A stretch of DNA of 64,000 nucleotides from Deltaproteobacteria bacterium GWA2_45_12 (GTDB taxonomy: Bacteria; UBA10199). Made by a program: the position numbers and the translations under genes. The notes under the pieces are model-generated. The model was given only the letters and a program-made list of their open reading frames with translations, had not been told where the DNA came from and did not search any database. Below are positions 15,443-61,371 of this stretch, one piece after another; the first letter of the stretch is position 1; the number at the start of each line of letters is the position of its first letter. The stretch spans positions 29,624 through 93,623 of the forward strand of contig MGPH01000052.1 of NCBI GenBank assembly GCA_001797365.1. Direction: 5' to 3'.

Positions 15443-15548
15443 GTTTTAATCCCCTACGCTCGTTGGCGCAGGATGCGCGTCTTGCCGGGTCAAAACCCTC
15501 CGCCTTAGGAGAATCTTCCAGGGCTTCTGGGGTTGATACCCTTGATCA
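15443..15548. repeat. Dispersed repeat of about 105 bp, copy 1
   Basis: Shares CCCCTACGCT, GTTGGCG, AGGATGCG, CTTGCCG, GTCAAA, CCCTCCGCCTTAGG, GAATCTT, CCAGGGCTT and TTGATCA, in the same order, with a second copy at 49626-49738. It contains the stop codon and last codons of the ATPase gene at 15505, so that protein's tail is repeat-derived. Confidence 0.7.
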
Positions 15549-16851
15549 AAAATTGTGGCATCGGCAAAATGGGAATGCCATCGTTGGCTCCTTCCTGGTT
15601 TTGAGTGAGGATAATGGAGTTGGGGTGCTTTTTTAATTCGGAGAGGTCCCACGATTTCAGTTGCTTCGTCCATTTGACTTCGATGGCAAGGGTTTGCTTG
15701 GGCTGCACGGCGATCACATCGATTTCTCCTTTTCCCTTCCAATAATAAGTGGGGCCTTTTAGCTTGAAAGCACCAGCCACAACTGATTCCGCCTTGATCG
15801 GTTCGTTCTCGATTGTGTGGTTCCAAAGTCCCTCCCTGTGGAGCCAGCGTTCGACGGTGTTCATAATGAAGGGATCCCAAAAATGGATCTTGCGGGCTTT
15901 TTTAGGAAAGCCGATCTTTTTATTCTGATCAAAAGCTTGGAGGGTGAACAAGACATCCATCCGTTCCAAAAGATTGCAATAGTCAATGAAGGTTTCCTTG
16001 CTGATTTCCCCCATCCTTTGGGCCAGCGAGGAGTATGTGACCTGGGAGCCCAAGGTTTCCCGGACCGTCTTTAAAACACCCAAAAGAATGGAGAGTGATT
16101 TGCCCCTTCTTTCCATGTCCCCCTGGATCCATTGTTCGTAAGTGATGTAAGTGGCCTCTTTGATACTTCCATTTTTATGGAAGTCATTGATGGTTTTGAG
16201 GTGCCCCCCGCATTGGAAATAATCTTTGAGGAGTGAAAGGAGTTGGGAGGGATCAGGATGTTCCGTAAGGATTAAGTTCGGGTCGATTAACCGGACATAG
16301 TCAAAGAAGGTGAGGGGGTGAAGATGAAAATCCGTTTGGGAAGCTTCCCCCCTCCTGCCGGGAAAACGGCTTGCGGCTTCCTTAAGGATGACATTGTCCG
16401 ATCCGGTGATGATGCAAAAGCCCCGGCGAAACCAACCTTCGTCGGCAAGAGCTTTGATGGCCCGGTCCCAATCTTTGACGAAGGTGACTTCATCGAGAAC
16501 AAGAAGAAAAAGAGGGGAGTGTCGGGAAATTTCTTTCAGAAGCAGTCGAAGTTTTTGACCCAGTTGAATGTGCGTGTCGATTTGATCGCAAGGAAGGTAA
16601 TAAATGGATTGGGGAGGAAATCGTTTTGTGACGAGAAGCTCTTTTAGGAGAAGTTTGGTGGAGGTTGTTTTGCCGATTTGGCGCCCTCCCGTTAAAAGAT
16701 AAATGCCCGGAGCTTGCCAATCGATTTTTCGCCACCAATCCATGGGATGAACCAAGGGGGTTTCGCTTAAGGGACTTAAGTGGGGATCATGTTTTAAAAA
16801 CAGATCCATCCCTTTTAAAAATAGGTTATGGTTAGAATATTCATCAAACAT
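15505..16851 (-). CDS. AAA-type ATPase of the DUF4143 group
   Basis: A 448-residue P-loop ATPase. Seen: Walker A TGGRQIGKTTST near residue 56, Walker B-like LFLLVLDEVTFVKDW near residue 115, sensor-type IITGSDNV, then a middle winged-helix-like part (TYSSLAQRMGEISKETFIDYCNLLERMDVLF). A C-terminal nuclease-like fold follows (KAESVVAGAFKLKG, then GEIDVIAVQPKQTLAIEVKW, a PD-(D/E)XK-like E-x-K). This domain order is typical of the AAA_14/DUF4143 family, whose role is not established. The ATG at 16851 lies just 6 nt after a probable -10 box, with twin palindromes upstream. Isolated gene, likely autoregulated. Confidence 0.85.
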   Translation of the reverse strand: MFDEYSNHNLFLKGMDLFLKHDPHLSPLSETPLVHPMDWWRKIDWQAPGIYLLTGGRQIGKTTSTKLLLKELLVTKRFPPQSIYYLPCDQIDTHIQLGQKLRLLLKEISRHSPLFLLVLDEVTFVKDWDRAIKALADEGWFRRGFCIITGSDNVILKEAASRFPGRRGEASQTDFHLHPLTFFDYVRLIDPNLILTEHPDPSQLLSLLKDYFQCGGHLKTINDFHKNGSIKEATYITYEQWIQGDMERRGKSLSILLGVLKTVRETLGSQVTYSSLAQRMGEISKETFIDYCNLLERMDVLFTLQAFDQNKKIGFPKKARKIHFWDPFIMNTVERWLHREGLWNHTIENEPIKAESVVAGAFKLKGPTYYWKGKGEIDVIAVQPKQTLAIEVKWTKQLKSWDLSELKKHPNSIILTQNQEGANDGIPILPMPQFLIKGINPRSPGRFS

Positions 16852-16857
16852 TTCAAT

Positions 16858-16911
16858 ATATTATATTTATAAGACAAATTTGTCTATTACATATTAGACA
16901 AATTTGTCTAA
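16858..16911 (-). promoter_or_regulatory. Promoter with twin palindromic operator for the 15505-16851 ATPase
   Basis: Two copies of the 14-bp palindrome AGACAAATTTGTCT lie at 16872-16885 and 16896-16909, 24 bp centre to centre. The distal copy extends to an 18-bp palindrome. On the minus strand TAGACA (16886-16881) and TAATAT (16863-16858) form a -35/-10 pair with 17-bp spacing, so the proximal palindrome overlaps the -35 box. The -10 box ends 6 nt before the ATG, predicting a nearly leaderless mRNA. Confidence 0.7.
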
Positions 16912-19590: not shown

Positions 19591-21189
19591 ATGACAAACA
19601 TCAAAATCCCCAATCCAACACTGGCAGCCGTTGAAAGAACCATCAAGTTGATGGACGAAAACAATTGGCCCCATGCCATGGATGTTTCAGATATTGCTGA
19701 TCCCGAAATACAAAATATTGCGACCCAGTTCGACCCCCAAGCCCATGAACTAACCCAGGCCGATTTGTTCAAGCTTCTTATCCAAGTAGAGCAAGGTCAA
19801 AATGTGCGGGATCCCTATCTCAACCAAAACGATTATCTGGCCTCTCACAGATTGCGCGAGGCCCTTAACTTACCCACAATGGATCCAAATGGCGTGACAC
19901 TTTCCTTTCACACTTTTGAAATTTCGCGCGGGACACAAATAGGGGCCACCACAATCCAACCACAAAATATTTCCAACCCACCCCTTGTGTTTTTTGGAGG
20001 CCTTTTGCACAAGGCCGCCGTCTATCTTCCTTTTTTAACAGAATTGGCCAAGGCCCAGGGACGTACCATCCATGTAGTCAGCCTGCCGGGCATGGGAGAA
20101 AGCGGGCTTAAACACGGAGAGTCTGTTACTCACCAACTTATGGTGGAAGCCGTTTGTAAAACCGTCCACGAACTCATTCCCGCTGACTCTTCGGTAGCCC
20201 TGATGGGGCACAGCTTGGGGACAATTCCCCTTCGCCACCTCTACCATCATCAGAAACTTTTGGACCGCAAGGTGGAACAATGGGTTTTAGTCACCCCTAG
20301 CCCCGCTGAAAGAGAATATAAGGCGGGATTATTTTTACATCCCACCTTTGCCGCTGCTTCCGGAATAGAACCCATGGTTCTTGGGAAAATAAAGCCCACC
20401 CTGCTTCCCCACTTCCTCTTCAATAATCACCCCGAAGAAGAAGCAGAATGGTTGGACAAAATTGTGGGGCGCGAAGAATTTCCCGTTGGATTTTTTAATC
20501 AGATGGAAGTTGTCATGGCTATTGACCAAGAACCTCTTCTGGAATCTGTGAAAAAGGACCCTAAACTTAAACTAGTCTTTGCCGCCAACGACCGTTTAAT
20601 CCCTCTTGCCAATCCAGAGATGTGGAAACGCTTTAGAAATGTGCATGTTCTAAAGGGAGCCGATCATTGTTTTATCGCCGGGAAGGAGTCATCAAAACAT
20701 TGGGTAAACGATATTAAAAATATTCTTGATCAAGGGGATTCCCGCCCTCCTCTTGAAGAAGAAAATCTTTATCCCCATACAAAATTGGCACTGGGAGGAA
20801 CATCGGGTATGGACACCCACGGCACCCTCATCGCCGGCGGAGAATTAAGTGCCACCCTCGCCCTTTTGCCAAATCTGGCAGGGATTGCCGCTCTTCTTCC
20901 TCAAATCCGTATTGAGGATTTTGAACGTTTCCGCACTCCCGGATTTGCCCAAGTTGGTTTGGATATCGCCCCCGATGCCGATGGGCATATAAGCGTCTTT
21001 ACAGGTGGACAAGCCGGTTATGATGCCTTTCACAGTCAATTCGTCCCTCCCCAAATTCTTGCCGAACTGCGATATACCATTGTGGGGGCGGCAGGAATCT
21101 ACGCCCAGATAGCGCAGGAAGTGTTGGCCCCCCTTAATCCACAAAACATCACGGGAACTTTTGGGGCAAGAATGTCGGGACTTAGGTGA
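19591..21189 (+). CDS. Alpha/beta hydrolase with extra N- and C-terminal regions
   Basis: A 532-residue protein. The central region (about residues 120-380) is an alpha/beta hydrolase: oxyanion region VFFGGLLHKAAVY, nucleophile elbow MGHSLGT near residue 206, acid in FAANDRLIP, and base in GADHCFIAG. The first 110 residues and the last 140 (after about residue 390, with GGTSGMDTHGTLIAGGELSA) match nothing I know. The hydrolase may act on an ester or amide; substrate unknown. Likely co-transcribed with the GGDEF-like gene. The ATG at 19591 is preferred over a TTG three codons upstream. Its 3' end overlaps the convergent nucleotidyltransferase gene by 8 bp. Confidence 0.8.
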   Translation: MTNIKIPNPTLAAVERTIKLMDENNWPHAMDVSDIADPEIQNIATQFDPQAHELTQADLFKLLIQVEQGQNVRDPYLNQNDYLASHRLREALNLPTMDPNGVTLSFHTFEISRGTQIGATTIQPQNISNPPLVFFGGLLHKAAVYLPFLTELAKAQGRTIHVVSLPGMGESGLKHGESVTHQLMVEAVCKTVHELIPADSSVALMGHSLGTIPLRHLYHHQKLLDRKVEQWVLVTPSPAEREYKAGLFLHPTFAAASGIEPMVLGKIKPTLLPHFLFNNHPEEEAEWLDKIVGREEFPVGFFNQMEVVMAIDQEPLLESVKKDPKLKLVFAANDRLIPLANPEMWKRFRNVHVLKGADHCFIAGKESSKHWVNDIKNILDQGDSRPPLEEENLYPHTKLALGGTSGMDTHGTLIAGGELSATLALLPNLAGIAALLPQIRIEDFERFRTPGFAQVGLDIAPDADGHISVFTGGQAGYDAFHSQFVPPQILAELRYTIVGAAGIYAQIAQEVLAPLNPQNITGTFGARMSGLR

Positions 21190-21877
21190 TAAAACGATTG
21201 GTAATAATCTTCTGCCCTGCCGCATAGGCGCGCCGAACCACTTCTTTCCAATGAGTATAGGGAGATTGAAGCGCTTTATAGCGGCTTAAATCCGTCTGCA
21301 AAAGATCCCAGGGTTTGGGTTCGGCTAGCTGAATGGCCAGTTGTTGGCTGATCGAATTATCTTCCCGTTGGGGATAGAGGCGATCCAACGAATCAAGGGC
21401 TTCAAGAGCTTTTGAAACCCCCAGCCGATCAAAGAGAGCCACAAAATCAATAAAATCCCTTGTCGTGTTGCGCCGCACAACCAGATAGGCTTTAATCCGA
21501 AGCATTTCCTCGAGGGTGGGAATTTTCAAACCCCGAACAATCGTTGTTTCTAAAGGAGCCTTACGAATAAGTTGTCTTAACCCGGTTCGAACCCCCTGAA
21601 AATGCCCCAAAATAAGAACCGGCGGCTCCAATCTTTTCGTGCGCCAGCCCGCTTCTTTTTCCACTTCTTTCAAAATATTTTGAAATCGTTTTTTTAAATC
21701 CGTAAATACATGGTCAGCATCCAAAGAAATGCGATGGCCAGCATGGAGGGATGCCGCGGTCCCCCCCACAAGAATGCATTCGGGGAAATGGGACTGAAAC
21801 ACCATTTGAACGGAGAGAAGCTTTTCCCATTCGGGAAGATCGTCTATTTTTTGAGTGGTTTTTCCTTTTTTACTCAT
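21182..21877 (-). CDS. Nucleotidyltransferase-fold protein, toxin-like
   Basis: A 231-residue protein from the ATG at 21877. Seen: LVGGTAASLHAGHR followed by SLDADHVFTD, giving the G-G...D-x-D layout of the DNA polymerase beta nucleotidyltransferase fold, as in AbiEii/MenT-type toxins. Then RTGLRQLIRKAPLETT and the basic ARG-rich IKAYLVVRRNTTRDFIDF, typical of that group's C-terminal helical part. Its start overlaps the stop of the upstream 129-residue gene as ATGA. A two-gene operon with an operator-like palindrome fits a type IV-like toxin-antitoxin module. The biochemical activity is inferred from fold only. Confidence 0.72.
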   Translation of the reverse strand: MSKKGKTTQKIDDLPEWEKLLSVQMVFQSHFPECILVGGTAASLHAGHRISLDADHVFTDLKKRFQNILKEVEKEAGWRTKRLEPPVLILGHFQGVRTGLRQLIRKAPLETTIVRGLKIPTLEEMLRIKAYLVVRRNTTRDFIDFVALFDRLGVSKALEALDSLDRLYPQREDNSISQQLAIQLAEPKPWDLLQTDLSRYKALQSPYTHWKEVVRRAYAAGQKIITNRFIT

Positions 21878-22263
21878 GGGGGCAGCCCTCGTGCACGGAT
21901 TAAAAGCCCCTTCCACAGGGAAACAACCCCGTAAATTTCTGTCGAGCCCAAAACCTTCTCCAACGCTTCTGCCGAAGGGCCAAAGGGATGCTCCGAAACT
22001 TTTTGATAAAGCTCCCCCCATGCCGCAAGTGAACCTTCCGAAAGAATTTCTTCGAGATAGACGGGATCATCCCACCCGGATTGAGAGAGGCGGGTGCTGG
22101 TATGAACCGAAAGAGTGGATGCCGATTTTCCCCATCGAGCCTGGGCTGCTTTGGCTGCAATGGCCAACCGATGCTTAGCCGACAAACGCGCCGCCCGCGC
22201 CTTCCCCCCTTGCTTTCCCCATTGCTGAAAACGGTCTTTGACTTGTTTGGAAAGGTGAGCCAT
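21874..22263 (-). CDS. Putative antitoxin partner with GGKARAARLS motif
   Basis: A 129-residue protein. The N-terminal 45 residues are basic and contain GKQGGKARAARLS and IAAKAAQARW, a motif that recurs at the N-termini of small bacterial proteins and looks nucleic-acid binding. The C-terminal part (DPVYLEEILSEGSLAAWGELYQKVSEHPFG) resembles the helical regions of proteins encoded beside nucleotidyltransferases. It is the first gene of a pair, with a perfect palindrome covering its promoter, so it could be the autorepressing antitoxin. Function is inferred from context. Confidence 0.65.
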   Translation of the reverse strand: MAHLSKQVKDRFQQWGKQGGKARAARLSAKHRLAIAAKAAQARWGKSASTLSVHTSTRLSQSGWDDPVYLEEILSEGSLAAWGELYQKVSEHPFGPSAEALEKVLGSTEIYGVVSLWKGLLIRARGLPP

Positions 22264-22269
22264 AACCGG

Positions 22270-22299
22270 ATGATATGCTTACCCGGTAAGCATAGTCAA
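22270..22299 (-). promoter_or_regulatory. Promoter-operator of the nucleotidyltransferase pair
   Basis: On the minus strand TTGACT (22299-22294) and TATCAT (22275-22270) are 18 bp apart. The spacer is almost exactly a perfect inverted repeat with arms TATGCTTACC and GGTAAGCATA around one central base (22274-22294). Only 6 nt lie between the -10 box and the ATG at 22263, so the transcript should be leaderless or nearly so. Confidence 0.72.
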
Positions 22300-24899: not shown

Positions 24900-25610
24900 T
24901 TAATCCAGCCTATAGGTTTCCTGTTCTGAAAACACCTTCACATATTCCTTGGTGAGTTCACATTTTACATACTTAAGATGACCAAAATCTTTTTGAATGG
25001 CTTCCCGATTAAAAATGGGGATGCAAATGCCATCCTTATCGCGGGCCGATGGTGCTTTTAAGATATGGGCTTTATGGGCCTGAAAATCCTTGGCGAGTTT
25101 TTGACAATAAGAATACCCCGATGAGTCCTTTGAAGTAAGAAGGCTCCGATCAAGATTCTTATTGCGAGTTAAGTCCCCACAGTATTTGGATTGCACTTTA
25201 AGGCCGATCACCCGACGGGTGATCGGTAAAACCTTTTTTCCCTCCAACTCTTCCTTATAAAAATAATGAACAGCGTGATACAGTGCCTCTTTTAAGGCCG
25301 TCACTTCGGATTCAGCAGTGTAGAGCACGGCCCACGTGCCATCTGAAAAACGGGAGGAATACCAATTTTCGGGCTTAAATTTTTTTGAGATTTCCTCACC
25401 AATGAACTCGTCAATGGATCTTTTAAGAACCCTTTCTGCAGGAGATTGCATGATCGGCACCGAAGAATCATGATAGTAGAACTTTTTTAAAATCTCTTGG
25501 GCTTCATGGGATGGCGCAATATCATCGGTGAGTTCTTGGCTTGGACTCAAAGAGGCAATGTTGCGGAAAACATTTCCTTCATAATGGATAAGTTTAACGG
25601 GTTCTTTCAT
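24900..25610 (-). CDS. RES domain toxin
   Basis: Toxin half of a Res-Xre type II toxin-antitoxin pair; characterised members degrade NAD+. With the ATG at 25610 it has 236 residues. Seen: FRNIASL near the N-terminus, the hallmark WYSSRFSDGTWAVLYTAESEVTALKEALYH with the conserved Arg, Tyr and Glu, and later SYCQKLAKDF with a conserved Ser/Tyr region. Its start lies 17 bp inside the antitoxin gene, the usual coupled layout. It is longer than minimal RES toxins, with extra N-terminal sequence before the core. Confidence 0.85.
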   Translation of the reverse strand: MKEPVKLIHYEGNVFRNIASLSPSQELTDDIAPSHEAQEILKKFYYHDSSVPIMQSPAERVLKRSIDEFIGEEISKKFKPENWYSSRFSDGTWAVLYTAESEVTALKEALYHAVHYFYKEELEGKKVLPITRRVIGLKVQSKYCGDLTRNKNLDRSLLTSKDSSGYSYCQKLAKDFQAHKAHILKAPSARDKDGICIPIFNREAIQKDFGHLKYVKCELTKEYVKVFSEQETYRLD

Positions 25611-26001
25611 GATCCAAATAGCAGCGTATGGCGTGGATACCTTCTTTGCCGTCTTCAAGCATGACATCAAGAGCCGAATACCCTCCAAAACGTTCCCGTT
25701 TTACTTTGACCCATTCATAAACCGCGCTCAGGTTGTTGGGAAAAAGAATTCGAAGAGATTTGTGGATATTGATCAAATCGATGATCCGCTCTAACTTGTC
25801 ACGATCGTTATCCAAAACCGTGGCTCCTTTACGCATACTCTCTAACTTCGTTCTTTTTTCCTTGTAGTTCCATCCCAACAATTGGGCTTCCTCTTCCCTC
25901 TTTAACTGCCACTTTTGGGTGAGATTAAAAAAGGTCTGCGCCAATATTTCTCTTGTTTTTTCAGCACCAAATTCTGTTTTTGTAATAGGGTTTAATTCCA
26001 T
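25594..26001 (-). CDS. Xre/MbcA/ParS family antitoxin
   Basis: A 135-residue antitoxin. The N-terminal half has a helix-turn-helix-type region (LKREEEAQLLGWNYKEKRTKLE), expected to bind the operon promoter. The C-terminal half is the MbcA/ParS toxin-binding domain: ERIIDLINIHKSLRILFP, then FGGYSALDVMLEDG and the closing IRCYLDHERTR that plugs the RES active site in known complexes. It is transcribed first, and the toxin start overlaps its end. A short relic of a very similar gene lies at 57988-58068. Confidence 0.88.
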   Translation of the reverse strand: MELNPITKTEFGAEKTREILAQTFFNLTQKWQLKREEEAQLLGWNYKEKRTKLESMRKGATVLDNDRDKLERIIDLINIHKSLRILFPNNLSAVYEWVKVKRERFGGYSALDVMLEDGKEGIHAIRCYLDHERTR

Positions 26002-58144: not shown

Positions 58145-59839
58145 CTAGAAAGGCCCGTGCCTTGGCTTAGCTTTTGGGCGTAAGCCCTCATCCAATCTAT
58201 TGTCCAAATAATAACATTGGAGCTGCTTGACGCTAAAACCCGTAACTTCGGAGAGGAATTCAAGCAATTGGCGGGAGGGCACTTTTTCAAGACTGACATA
58301 GCAAAGAATCGCCTTAAGATTTATTTCGTACTGGCCACTTGGGGACTTGAATTTTCTCTCCATATCAAGAGCCACCTCATCGCCTTCTAAAAGCCAATCA
58401 AGAATCCTTCTTGGTATTTCATGATGCTCTTTGGCTCTTTGATCAAGCCTGGCCACATAAGCCGCATGGGTGCGCGTGGGAAGGTATAGCTCATGGCCTT
58501 CCCGCTCGGTCCAAGAGTGAGTCAGATGGGGAATGAAGGCTGCACGATTAAAAAGGGAAAAAAGGATATTCGGATCAAGGTCCAACGTCCCCGCAACGCA
58601 TTCCAAAAATGTTTTGTCAGGTCTTAATTGCTGGGGGGTCCAACGAGTCAATTTCCATAACCTGTTTTTAAGATGATTCTCATCGGTTCCCCGTGGGTGC
58701 CCCTGCCTACGGATGATCTCGTCCTTCAACCGTTGCACACTCACCGGCCAGCTTTGAGCGCGTATGCGCTGCAAAACAAGTTCTGTGGGTGAGTCGCCAT
58801 AAATTTCGACAATAAGTTCGGCGATTGGACGCCCCCCGGCTTGCAGGCGGGCATAGGCCGTTGTTGTTTCGTTTGCGGCAACAGCCTCTGTCCCCACCGC
58901 CTTGTCTTGAGTAACCATAAGTGCTTGAGCTTGGCTTCTCCTTATGGATCTTGCAGAGGGAGGACGAGTACGAGGTTCTTTGGAATATTTTTTGGGTGGT
59001 AATTTCTGTGGCTGGGATGGTGCAGACATTCGTGCCCGTTCTTTATGACGCTCTGGACATTGGTTCACCTGTTCCATGTAAAATTCAATGACAGCAGCTC
59101 CGTATAAAAACTCGATGACAATTTTTAACTCTTCATCGCTAAAATCTTTTAGGGAAGCCAGATCAACAACGCGTGGCTCCTTTGGTAGCTTTTGGGATAA
59201 TGCCCGGATGATGATTTGAGCTTGGCGAGGCGGGTAACAAACCCACACCATCCCCTGAATAAAGGGACTATTGGAATTCTTAAAAGAGATGTGTGACCGC
59301 GTGGCCCTATCAGGCAAGGCTAAAACACGTTTCATTCTAACCAACGCTATCAATTCCTGATACATGGGAGGATTGGGACCCTCGGTTCCCCGAAGGCTTT
59401 CGATGATAAAGCGGGCCTCATCTTCAGGGGTACGGCGGGCTTCCGTGGGATGAAAGGCGCTCTCCATTGGGCTTACAGCCGGGGATCTTGATGGCGCACC
59501 AACATCATCTTGAGCCAGTTCAAGCCCTTCCACACTTCCCCAAAAAAAACGCGCTCTTTTTTGAAGCAGATCGGGCCCACTCCCATTCAGAGGGGAAAAA
59601 AATATCCCGTTACTACTCAACCCAAGAGCTTGGCCGGTACCAAGAGACAGAACAAAATTTTCGCCCAACTTGGGTTGGTAGCCCGTTTTCTCTAATGCCC
59701 GAAAGGCTCGATGTTTTTGCCAAGCAGGGGTTTGCCCCACCCTACTTCGAGGGCCTTGTCCTCGCGAACCAAATTGAGGAGCCGATGTAAACCTTGAGGA
59801 CAAGGCCAGCCCTCGAGGAAATGCAACAATTTTGAACAT
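58145..59839 (-). CDS. Orphan protein with FPRGLALSSRF head, unknown
   Basis: A 564-residue protein without signal peptide. The first 130 residues are Arg/Gly/Ser/Pro-rich and disordered. The middle has a basic Pro/Arg/Ser linker (PPKKYSKEPRTRPPSARS). The C-terminal 200 residues are helical (TTAYARLQAGGRPIAELIVEIYGD, then helix-turn-helix-like stretches such as PSRQLLEFLSEVTGFSVKQL). I recognise no family. The final 20 residues (DEGLRPKAKPRHGPF) lose helical character, while a neighbouring frame over 58075-58190 continues a protein-like run (LSRETILELMDETYPAIV), so a late frameshift is possible. The 5' end is duplicated at 61384-61478. Confidence 0.55.
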   Translation of the reverse strand: MFKIVAFPRGLALSSRFTSAPQFGSRGQGPRSRVGQTPAWQKHRAFRALEKTGYQPKLGENFVLSLGTGQALGLSSNGIFFSPLNGSGPDLLQKRARFFWGSVEGLELAQDDVGAPSRSPAVSPMESAFHPTEARRTPEDEARFIIESLRGTEGPNPPMYQELIALVRMKRVLALPDRATRSHISFKNSNSPFIQGMVWVCYPPRQAQIIIRALSQKLPKEPRVVDLASLKDFSDEELKIVIEFLYGAAVIEFYMEQVNQCPERHKERARMSAPSQPQKLPPKKYSKEPRTRPPSARSIRRSQAQALMVTQDKAVGTEAVAANETTTAYARLQAGGRPIAELIVEIYGDSPTELVLQRIRAQSWPVSVQRLKDEIIRRQGHPRGTDENHLKNRLWKLTRWTPQQLRPDKTFLECVAGTLDLDPNILFSLFNRAAFIPHLTHSWTEREGHELYLPTRTHAAYVARLDQRAKEHHEIPRRILDWLLEGDEVALDMERKFKSPSGQYEINLKAILCYVSLEKVPSRQLLEFLSEVTGFSVKQLQCYYLDNRLDEGLRPKAKPRHGPF

Positions 59840-60039: not shown

Positions 60040-61332
60040 TTAGCGCTCGTTTTTCAAAAGCCATTTCCACAGAGGCGTGAAATGAATGACATGTTTTCCT
60101 ATTTTCTCCCCCCCTTCTTCTTCTTGTGTGAGGATGAGGCCTTCATTGAGCTTTAAAGCTTCCAAGCACAGGATCAGGGAGGTCACTTCCCTTTTTCTCG
60201 TTTCAAGACGTAAAGAATCCCAGCAAACTTGGATCGCTTGGGTGGGGTTGCCCGATTGGGTAAGGACAAAATCAACCTCCTGGTGTTTTTCGTTCTTCCA
60301 ATAAAAAAAATCCAAGAGGGAATCTTTTGTCTTTTGCCCCAGCAAATGCAGGAAAACCATGTTTTCGGCAAGGTGGCCATCCCCCACTTTACGCCCACTG
60401 ATAGCGCCTGCCAGCCCCATGTCGATACAATAAATTTTGCGTGGGCTTTTGTTACGTTCCTTCAATTTATGTGAAAATCTTTGGACAAGGAAGAAGAGAA
60501 AGGCGTCCTCCAAATACCCTGAAAACCTCTCGGCGGTGTTCGCATTGATGGAGAGGAATTTTTCAATGGAGTTGAAGGTGATTTGGCTTCCACAGTGGGT
60601 GGCATAAAAAACGGCCATTTTCCTCAAGTCTTCTCCTTTGCGGATTTTGTAACGGCGGATCAAATCGCGGTGGATGAAGTCATCAAAATAATCCAGGAGA
60701 ATTTCCCTTTTGGCTTCGGAAAAAACCACTTCCGGAAATCCCCCGAATTCCATCATTTCACGCAGGAGGTTCAAATAATCGAAAGACTTTGGATTGTCCC
60801 CGAGGCGGATGCCGGCCAACTCTTGAAAAGAAAAAGGCAGCACTGTCATGGTAAGATGTCGGCCGGTGAGGGAGGTTGCCAACTCTCCGCTCAATAATTT
60901 CGCGTTGGATCCCGAAAGGATGATTTTTGCCTTATTCAACTCATGAAAAGTGCGCACCCATTTTTCCCATTGGGGGATTTCCTGGATCTCGTCCAACAGA
61001 AGGAAGGGTTTGGCAGGAGGCTTCAAATGGGATTGGTAGGTGTTCCATATTGTTTCGAAGAGGAAAGGATCTTCAGTTTCTAGGCGGGGGTCTTCGAAGT
61101 TGATCATGAGCATTTGCGCCGGATTGACTCCAGTTTGAGCATTCTGAAACATCCATTGGCGCATCAGATAGGATTTTCCAGCTCGTCGAGGGCCTGTGAT
61201 TACAACCACTTGATTTGTTTGTGTCAATTTATGAAGGTATTGAAAGTAAGAAGAACGTACGGAGCCTTGAGGGAGAGGATGCTTCCATAAATTCCAGTCA
61301 TCAAGAATAGGCAGTAACTGATTTGATTCCAT
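60040..61332 (-). CDS. AAA-type ATPase of the DUF4143 group, second copy
   Basis: About 430 residues from the ATG at 61332. The frame is open to a TTG at 61371, but the extra codons would be the operator palindrome itself. Seen: Walker A VVITGPRRAGKSYLMRQ near residue 43, Walker B FLLLDEIQEIPQW near residue 105, KIILSGSNAKLLSGEL, RHLTMTVLPFSFQELAG, the DUF4143-type middle, and the C-terminal nuclease-like NEKHQEVDFVLTQSG. It is clearly related in layout to the 15505-16851 protein but diverged. Isolated gene lying between a truncated and an intact copy of the FPRGL gene 5' end. Confidence 0.87.
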   Translation of the reverse strand: MESNQLLPILDDWNLWKHPLPQGSVRSSYFQYLHKLTQTNQVVVITGPRRAGKSYLMRQWMFQNAQTGVNPAQMLMINFEDPRLETEDPFLFETIWNTYQSHLKPPAKPFLLLDEIQEIPQWEKWVRTFHELNKAKIILSGSNAKLLSGELATSLTGRHLTMTVLPFSFQELAGIRLGDNPKSFDYLNLLREMMEFGGFPEVVFSEAKREILLDYFDDFIHRDLIRRYKIRKGEDLRKMAVFYATHCGSQITFNSIEKFLSINANTAERFSGYLEDAFLFFLVQRFSHKLKERNKSPRKIYCIDMGLAGAISGRKVGDGHLAENMVFLHLLGQKTKDSLLDFFYWKNEKHQEVDFVLTQSGNPTQAIQVCWDSLRLETRKREVTSLILCLEALKLNEGLILTQEEEGGEKIGKHVIHFTPLWKWLLKNER

Positions 61333-61333
61333 G

Positions 61334-61371
61334 TATGTGGTAAAAATAGACAATTTTACCACATAAGTCAA
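61334..61371 (-). promoter_or_regulatory. Promoter-operator of the 60040-61332 ATPase
   Basis: Perfect inverted repeat TATGTGGTAAAA (61334-61345) and TTTTACCACATA (61354-61365) around 8 bp (ATAGACAA). On the minus strand TTGACT (61371-61366) and TATTTT (61348-61343) are 17 bp apart, so the palindrome covers spacer and -10 box. The -10 box ends 10 nt before the ATG at 61332, giving almost no leader. Confidence 0.7.

Follow-up and report, generated by a model that had tools for sequence, protein, structure and literature searches.

PADLOC carries PDC-S01 as a 'phage defence candidate', a single-gene ATPase with a PD-(D/E)XK domain, and the available text of PMC12988326 places it fourth in frequency among the defences of all prokaryotes, with validation pending; the accessible parts of PMC13356809 likewise report its prevalence and its unvalidated state. 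The ATPase studied here is a member of this family by its match to the PADLOC PDC-S01 profile (1.3e-105) together with the Pfam domains AAA_14 (7.5e-35, above the cut-off) and DUF4143 (1.8e-26), and it differs from the description in missing the E-x-K of the nuclease motif. Regulation of PDC-S01 is not described in the available text of PMC12988326, and what we add is a family-wide proposed operator. The type IV toxin-antitoxin system AbiE is autoregulated, AbiEi and Rv2827c each binding to inverted repeats within the promoter that drives them (PMC7319586, as far as its available text goes), and the locus described here resembles AbiE in that a defence-type gene has inverted repeats, as a single set or two sets, in its promoter. 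There, according to the same text, the repeats are bound by the system's own product, a small antitoxin, whereas here no partner gene was recognised and the large ATPase is the candidate binder. The arrangement sought in toxin-antitoxin operons, a palindromic operator overlapping the promoter, is present in candidate form at this gene. Repressors of defence islands are also known, namely WYL-domain regulators (PMC9122601) and RptR (PMC12255303); the likeness lies in the regulation of defence genes, and 'inverted repeat' is a frequent term in the available text of the WYL paper (PMC9122601). In what is available of these two papers, however, the regulators are separate genes, whereas here we propose an effector acting on itself. 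We found no report on operators of DUF4143, PDC-S01 or AAA_14 genes in a literature search over a collection of mainly open-access papers, bioRxiv preprints not among them.

The gene lies in a window, the whole stretch of 64,000 nucleotides that was analysed, whose relevant features are collected in Table 1. Read on the minus strand, the upstream region runs TTGACT, TATGTGGTAAAA-TTGTCTAT-TTTTACCACATA, a single C and the ATG at 61332. The two arms, TATGTGGTAAAA and TTTTACCACATA, are complementary at 12 of 12 positions and stand 8 nt apart, and the palindrome extends from the first base past the -35 hexamer to 1 nt short of the ATG, spanning the promoter spacer and the -10 box. The promoter itself consists of TTGACT, 17 nt, TATTTT (a weak -10 box, 4/6) and a further 10 nt to the ATG. 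The palindrome scored 13.5, whereas the 83-nt region after dinucleotide shuffling scored 6.4 ± 1.3 and equalled it in 0/300 trials, confirming the first-pass annotation's description of a palindrome laid over this promoter. An upstream TTG start at 61371, chosen by the ORF caller, is unlikely because, in an alignment with five homologues, the start at the ATG of 61332 is invariant.

Table 1. Features of the window, numbered from its first letter
Feature	Positions	Strand	Basis
First AAA_14-DUF4143 ATPase of the window	15505..16851	-	Pfam, PADLOC profile
Tandem palindromic operators (proposed), first ATPase	16872..16910		AGACAAATTTGTCT at 16872-16885; TAGACAAATTTGTCTA at 16895-16910
AbiEii-like nucleotidyltransferase ORF	21182..22021	-	Pfam AbiEii 9.8e-07
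ORF overlapping and upstream of the AbiEii-like ORF, where an AbiEi antitoxin would lie (judged from position alone)	21874..22263	-	No Pfam match
Palindrome TATGCTTACC-C-GGTAAGCATA before the AbiE-like pair	22274..22294		Sequence
AAA_14-DUF4143 ATPase gene (PADLOC PDC-S01), 430 aa from ATG	60043..61332	-	Pfam, PADLOC profile, conserved start
Proposed operator: perfect 12-bp inverted repeat, 8-bp spacer	61334..61365		Arm pairing, shuffle p=0.0033, sole exact genome site
-35 hexamer TTGACT of the window ATPase	61366..61371	-	Promoter scan
-10 hexamer TATTTT of the window ATPase	61343..61348	-	Promoter scan, position counted on sequence

A relaxed pattern search of the host genome returned one exact site for this operator, making it single-copy. 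A regulon was considered and rejected: the three sites with 3 mismatches are at background (4 forward matches versus 5 for a reversed control pattern). No small partner ORF was found before the window ATPase, and no recognised regulator gene directly adjoins it. On the same strand, ∼200 nt downstream, lies a 564-aa ORF (58145-59839) without a Pfam match.

Two other loci of the window also carry palindromes ahead of their genes. At the first ATPase the tandem palindromes are perfect and of the TAGACAAATTTGTCTA type, and a TAGACA-17-TAATAT promoter ends 6 nt ahead of the ATG; the proposal that both ATPases share one layout with different palindromes thus holds. The motif TAGACAA, offered as an element common to both regions, falls in an arm at the first ATPase and in the spacer at the window ATPase, and we give it no weight. 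The 'nucleotidyltransferase pair' of the first-pass annotation is the AbiEii-like ORF behind the ORF at 21874-22263, preceded by a palindrome of its own. Elsewhere in the window, a RES-domain ORF (24900-25688) adjoins an Xre/MbcA/ParS-type antitoxin ORF (25594-26001), forming a RES-Xre toxin-antitoxin pair (window 24900-26001).

The host genome (2.46 Mb, 68 contigs) encodes 20 AAA_14 ATPases above the cut-off, 16 of which carry, within 80 nt upstream of the start codon, an inverted repeat that reaches p≤0.04 against shuffles, and the operators of the 20 are nearly all different in sequence. As controls we used 181 genes from ∼399 kb of the host genome plus the window, with the window ATPase excluded. 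An inverted-repeat score of at least 12 was reached by 13/20 ATPases versus 33/181 controls, the latter figure reflecting the many GC-rich intergenic palindromic repeats of this genome; the palindromes of control genes are mostly such repeated elements. When only AT-rich arms were counted the comparison became 13/20 versus 6/181, and against AT-matched upstream regions 13/20 versus 3/47. A sigma70-like promoter ending -2 to 12 nt before the ATG was present at 8/20 ATPases versus 4/181 controls, and Shine-Dalgarno (SD)-like motifs at 1/20 versus 36/182 (a control set that includes the window ATPase). Tandem sites were recognised by eye in six of the host ATPases (L023, L026, L029, L030, L033 and L034). 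The L038 palindrome, 35 nt upstream, is less typical, and L036 is borderline, its p value being 0.027 in the host-genome scoring and 0.060 in the 161-gene scoring described below because the shuffles differ. The GC-rich repeats, of TGTAAGGGCAATTCATGAATTGCCCTTACA type and GGTCACTGAGCGGAGTCGA type, are frequent before unrelated genes in L077-L096, for example upstream of L077:10353-11075; any search of the host genome for palindromes has its counts inflated by them. Strong palindromes also occur in 2/4 non-ATPase controls with a near-leaderless promoter, where they likewise lie on the promoter; these two are the HTH_3/Xre regulator gene L088:17194-17652 and gene L085:2203-2934, the second having sub-threshold kinase/HipA-like matches only.

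Beyond the host, we scored 161 unique ATPase genes, of which 80 had p≤0.02 and 94 had p≤0.05 (among the matches listed). The set comprises the host 20, five loci from further genome contigs and, for the rest, ATPases from the phylum's 46 genomes; it was reduced from 186 ORFs by dropping five without Walker A, four without a start, and the rest as duplicates or as lying near a contig edge, and the phylum sample is the best 100 further matches by E-value among those listed. In the complete ATPase sets of two further genomes, 28/46 (G039) and 15/30 (G034) reached p≤0.05, and 16/30 Omnitrophota ATPases reached p≤0.02 (one entry dropped). The counts at p≤0.05 were 5/20 for IMG/VR homologues (three duplicates dropped) and 1/6 for plasmid homologues, and a search of viral contigs with profile A1 found no relative. 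The symmetry is confined in position, with 143/243 ATPases (59%) at p≤0.05 in the region from -80 to +3, compared with 35/242 (14%) from -163 to -80, 25/240 (10%) from -246 to -163 and 17/243 (7%) from +20 to +103. Where a sigma70-like promoter is present, the palindrome overlaps it in 51/55 genes, and the median distance from -10 to ATG in the 55 palindromic genes is 7 nt. In a tree of 196 distinct proteins (those <330 aa and four duplicates dropped) the 111 palindromic members are spread unevenly: some clades are nearly all palindromic (9/9, 7/7 and 9/10), the L028/L024 clade is so in 3/19 (Fisher p=1.7e-4), and the nearest clade of the window ATPase has a scored palindrome in 2/9, one at p=0.05. 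The pattern is therefore widespread in the family but not universal. We also looked for the opposite picture, with most homologues having long leaders and no symmetric element, and it did not occur.

The first-pass annotation had seen in these loci a common palindrome-on-promoter style of selfish or defence-type genes. The style is indeed widespread in the ATPase family, in the host genome, its phylum and the Omnitrophota, and the AbiE locus and the two control genes are consistent, with the ATPases, with the idea that autoregulated, defence-like genes share one style. The label 'selfish' is not supported, and ends of a mobile element were rejected, half-sites downstream of the genes being not above shuffles (3/104 versus 2/104).

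The sequence changes between relatives bear on whether the symmetry itself is kept. Over 280 gene pairs, 308 double changes were compensated versus 101 uncompensated (75%), whereas in wrong registers, slid by 1 to 3, only 18-34% of double changes keep pairing; because the pairs here and in the protein-operator comparisons are phylogenetically non-independent, we read this share as strong and not as a P value. A common block was present at -60 to 0 in 46% of the 56 pairs with 45-60% protein identity and in 62% of the 24 pairs with at least 60% identity, and at -120 to -60 in 0% of either group. Homologues across genomes thus keep the operator block within unrelated flanking DNA, and operator similarity climbs with protein similarity. 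In individual cases, L055 and L056 have identical arms and different spacers, L022 of the host and L057 both carry TGTCGA-N6-TCGACA, L201 and L228 show changes on both arms, and ATGAAATTTCG arms occur at L150 and L215 in the host's phylum and at L259 in the Omnitrophota. Within the window clade, L100 has TGATAAA/TTTATCA versus TGGTAAA/TTTACCA at the window ATPase, at nearly the same position, a single case noted by eye with p=0.095 for L100.

From these patterns we infer, with a probability of about 0.7, that the palindrome serves as an operator for negative autoregulation, the window ATPase binding at the near-leaderless promoter of its own gene and repressing it. The ATPase, probably as a dimer or higher oligomer, would bind the inverted repeat over the promoter spacer and -10 box and so exclude RNA polymerase; the near-leaderless layout would place the operator directly on the polymerase site. 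Repression might be relieved by the ATP state or by a stress or infection signal, the nucleotide state being the natural guess. Related ATPases would do likewise at operators of their own sequence, often at two tandem ∼30-bp sites joined by TT, the GTC-TT-GAC junction then doubling as the -35 box TTGAC, and recognition would fall to the C-terminal half of the protein, made up of the winged helix and the DUF4143/PD-(D/E)XK-like domain. That the operator is single-copy in the genome fits a dedicated regulator better than a global one. These considerations suggest that each ATPase, in a family suspected of fighting viruses, switches its own gene off until it is needed. Counting against self-repression are the low frequencies of palindromes in the nearest clade, the L028/L024 clade, the plasmids and IMG/VR.

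The palindromes might alternatively be operators for other transcription factors, either host regulators or silencers, which we consider unlikely. Binding by the ATPase itself is made uncertain by a winged helix that resembles the STAND type, and a block could be conserved through another protein. However, 20 operators that are almost all different would require about as many dedicated regulators, and the window ATPase has no recognised regulator gene directly beside it. In addition, the block stays with the ATPase across genomes while its flanks are unrelated, and its similarity follows the ATPase sequence.

How the ATPase might read DNA was considered on an AlphaFold model built from 27 sequences (pLDDT 91.6, pTM 0.90), which supersedes one from 6 sequences (pLDDT 68.9). 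The model has an AAA core, a winged-helix arrangement (helices 233-245, 253-260 and 264-276 with strands 280-283 and 298-302) and, following it, an alpha-beta C-terminal domain; the Walker A residues are invariant in the alignment of the window ATPase with its homologues. Its best solved relatives are the archaeal AAA+ ATPases 2qen of P. abyssi (Z 17.8, rmsd 3.9, 264 residues aligned) and 2fna, SSO1545 (Z 16.9, rmsd 4.2, 263 aligned), with the STAND-type CED-4 (Z 16.0) and NLR proteins behind them. All share the AAA core and winged helix over residues 19-313, but the alignment stops at about residue 313 and leaves the DUF4143 domain uncovered; the match list is filled by the AAA part and says nothing on PD-(D/E)XK matches. 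By the model, then, the winged helix resembles those of STAND proteins and archaeal ATPases; the nSTAND3 profile matches below its cut-off. A STAND winged helix is often an internal regulatory or switch domain instead of a DNA binder, and for this reason the C-terminal domain has to be taken seriously as the part that might read DNA.

In the palindromic genes, the correlation between operator similarity and protein identity is r 0.56 for the C-terminal half and 0.33 for the N-terminal half (difference by bootstrap, 0.11 to 0.38); in these comparisons the operator is tied more closely to the C-terminal half, which holds the winged helix and DUF4143, than to the AAA half. Length-matched windows gave 0.43-0.50 for DUF4143 stretches, 0.40 for the winged helix and 0.25-0.37 for AAA and lid windows; the winged helix and DUF4143 did not differ significantly. 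The idea that operator specificity evolves with each ATPase is borne out insofar as the operator changes with the protein and the C-terminal half tracks it better than the AAA half does; covariation with the winged helix in particular is not distinguishable from that with DUF4143, and the winged helix as sole determinant is unsupported. Sharing of blocks within and between genomes differs in one of six identity bins, at 50-60%, where a block is common to 0/7 same-genome pairs versus 46% of 41 pairs (p=0.012); among more similar proteins, a pair from one genome with 63% identity does have a common block. The larger idea of the first-pass annotation is partly supported, being right in outline and stronger than first seen, with the parts on the winged helix and on insulation not established.

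A quite improbable alternative is that the PD-(D/E)XK-like domain uses the palindrome as a target or for self-recognition, be it as a nuclease site, an integration target or the end of a mobile unit, and that the palindrome's overlap with the promoter is a by-product. Enzymes of this fold often read palindromes, the windows in the C-terminal domain give the highest values for operator similarity, D...E-x-K is kept in 143/196 relatives, and conservation ends abruptly upstream of the block. The window ATPase, however, keeps D354 but has Q-x-C in place of E-x-K, as do five homologues, and so does not carry the full catalytic set of D plus E-x-K, yet it has one of the clean palindromes; its subfamily may have lost cleavage. 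The absence of an excess of downstream half-sites, the near-constant overlap with the promoter and the single-copy operator also speak against such a site. A variant of self-repression, doubtful but with some chance of being right, is that the nuclease-like DUF4143 domain and not the winged helix reads the palindrome. The protein would then be a one-gene sensor, repressor and effector resting on its own promoter as a decoy site, and nucleotide exchange or infection would free it, setting off synthesis and action together.

A role of the palindrome as RNA, as a transcription terminator or a 5'-leader hairpin, is very improbable and was rejected. A scan did mark the plus-strand sequence at 61334-61365 as terminator-like, but no plus-strand ORF of at least 80 aa outside the ATPase gene ends there; with 10 nt between the -10 box and the ATG, most of the window palindrome would be untranscribed, and in the 55 palindromic genes, too, the predicted transcript begins past most of it. 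That the symmetry arose by chance in AT-rich DNA, or belongs to repeats widespread in the host genome, is hardly credible: the GC-rich repeats and the high-scoring controls lend this some colour, but it is already contradicted by the dinucleotide shuffles, the AT-rich and AT-matched controls, the positional controls and the compensatory changes.

For a family reported among the most abundant candidate defences and with no validated mechanism, in the available text of PMC12988326, a probable DNA site offers a first biochemical handle, on which DNA, which nucleotide and which domain are involved. The proposed operators also give a handle on how cells control 20-46 copies of such an ATPase, and the many natural protein-operator pairs with compensatory changes are material from which recognition rules could be read. 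If DUF4143 does read the palindrome, dozens of paralogues (46 in G039), each with a private site, would form a large natural repressor-operator set. G039 (L117, L284-L312 and L342-L357) is itself an extreme expansion, with its 46 AAA_14 ATPases in 2.2 Mb, many of them preceded by distinct palindromes.
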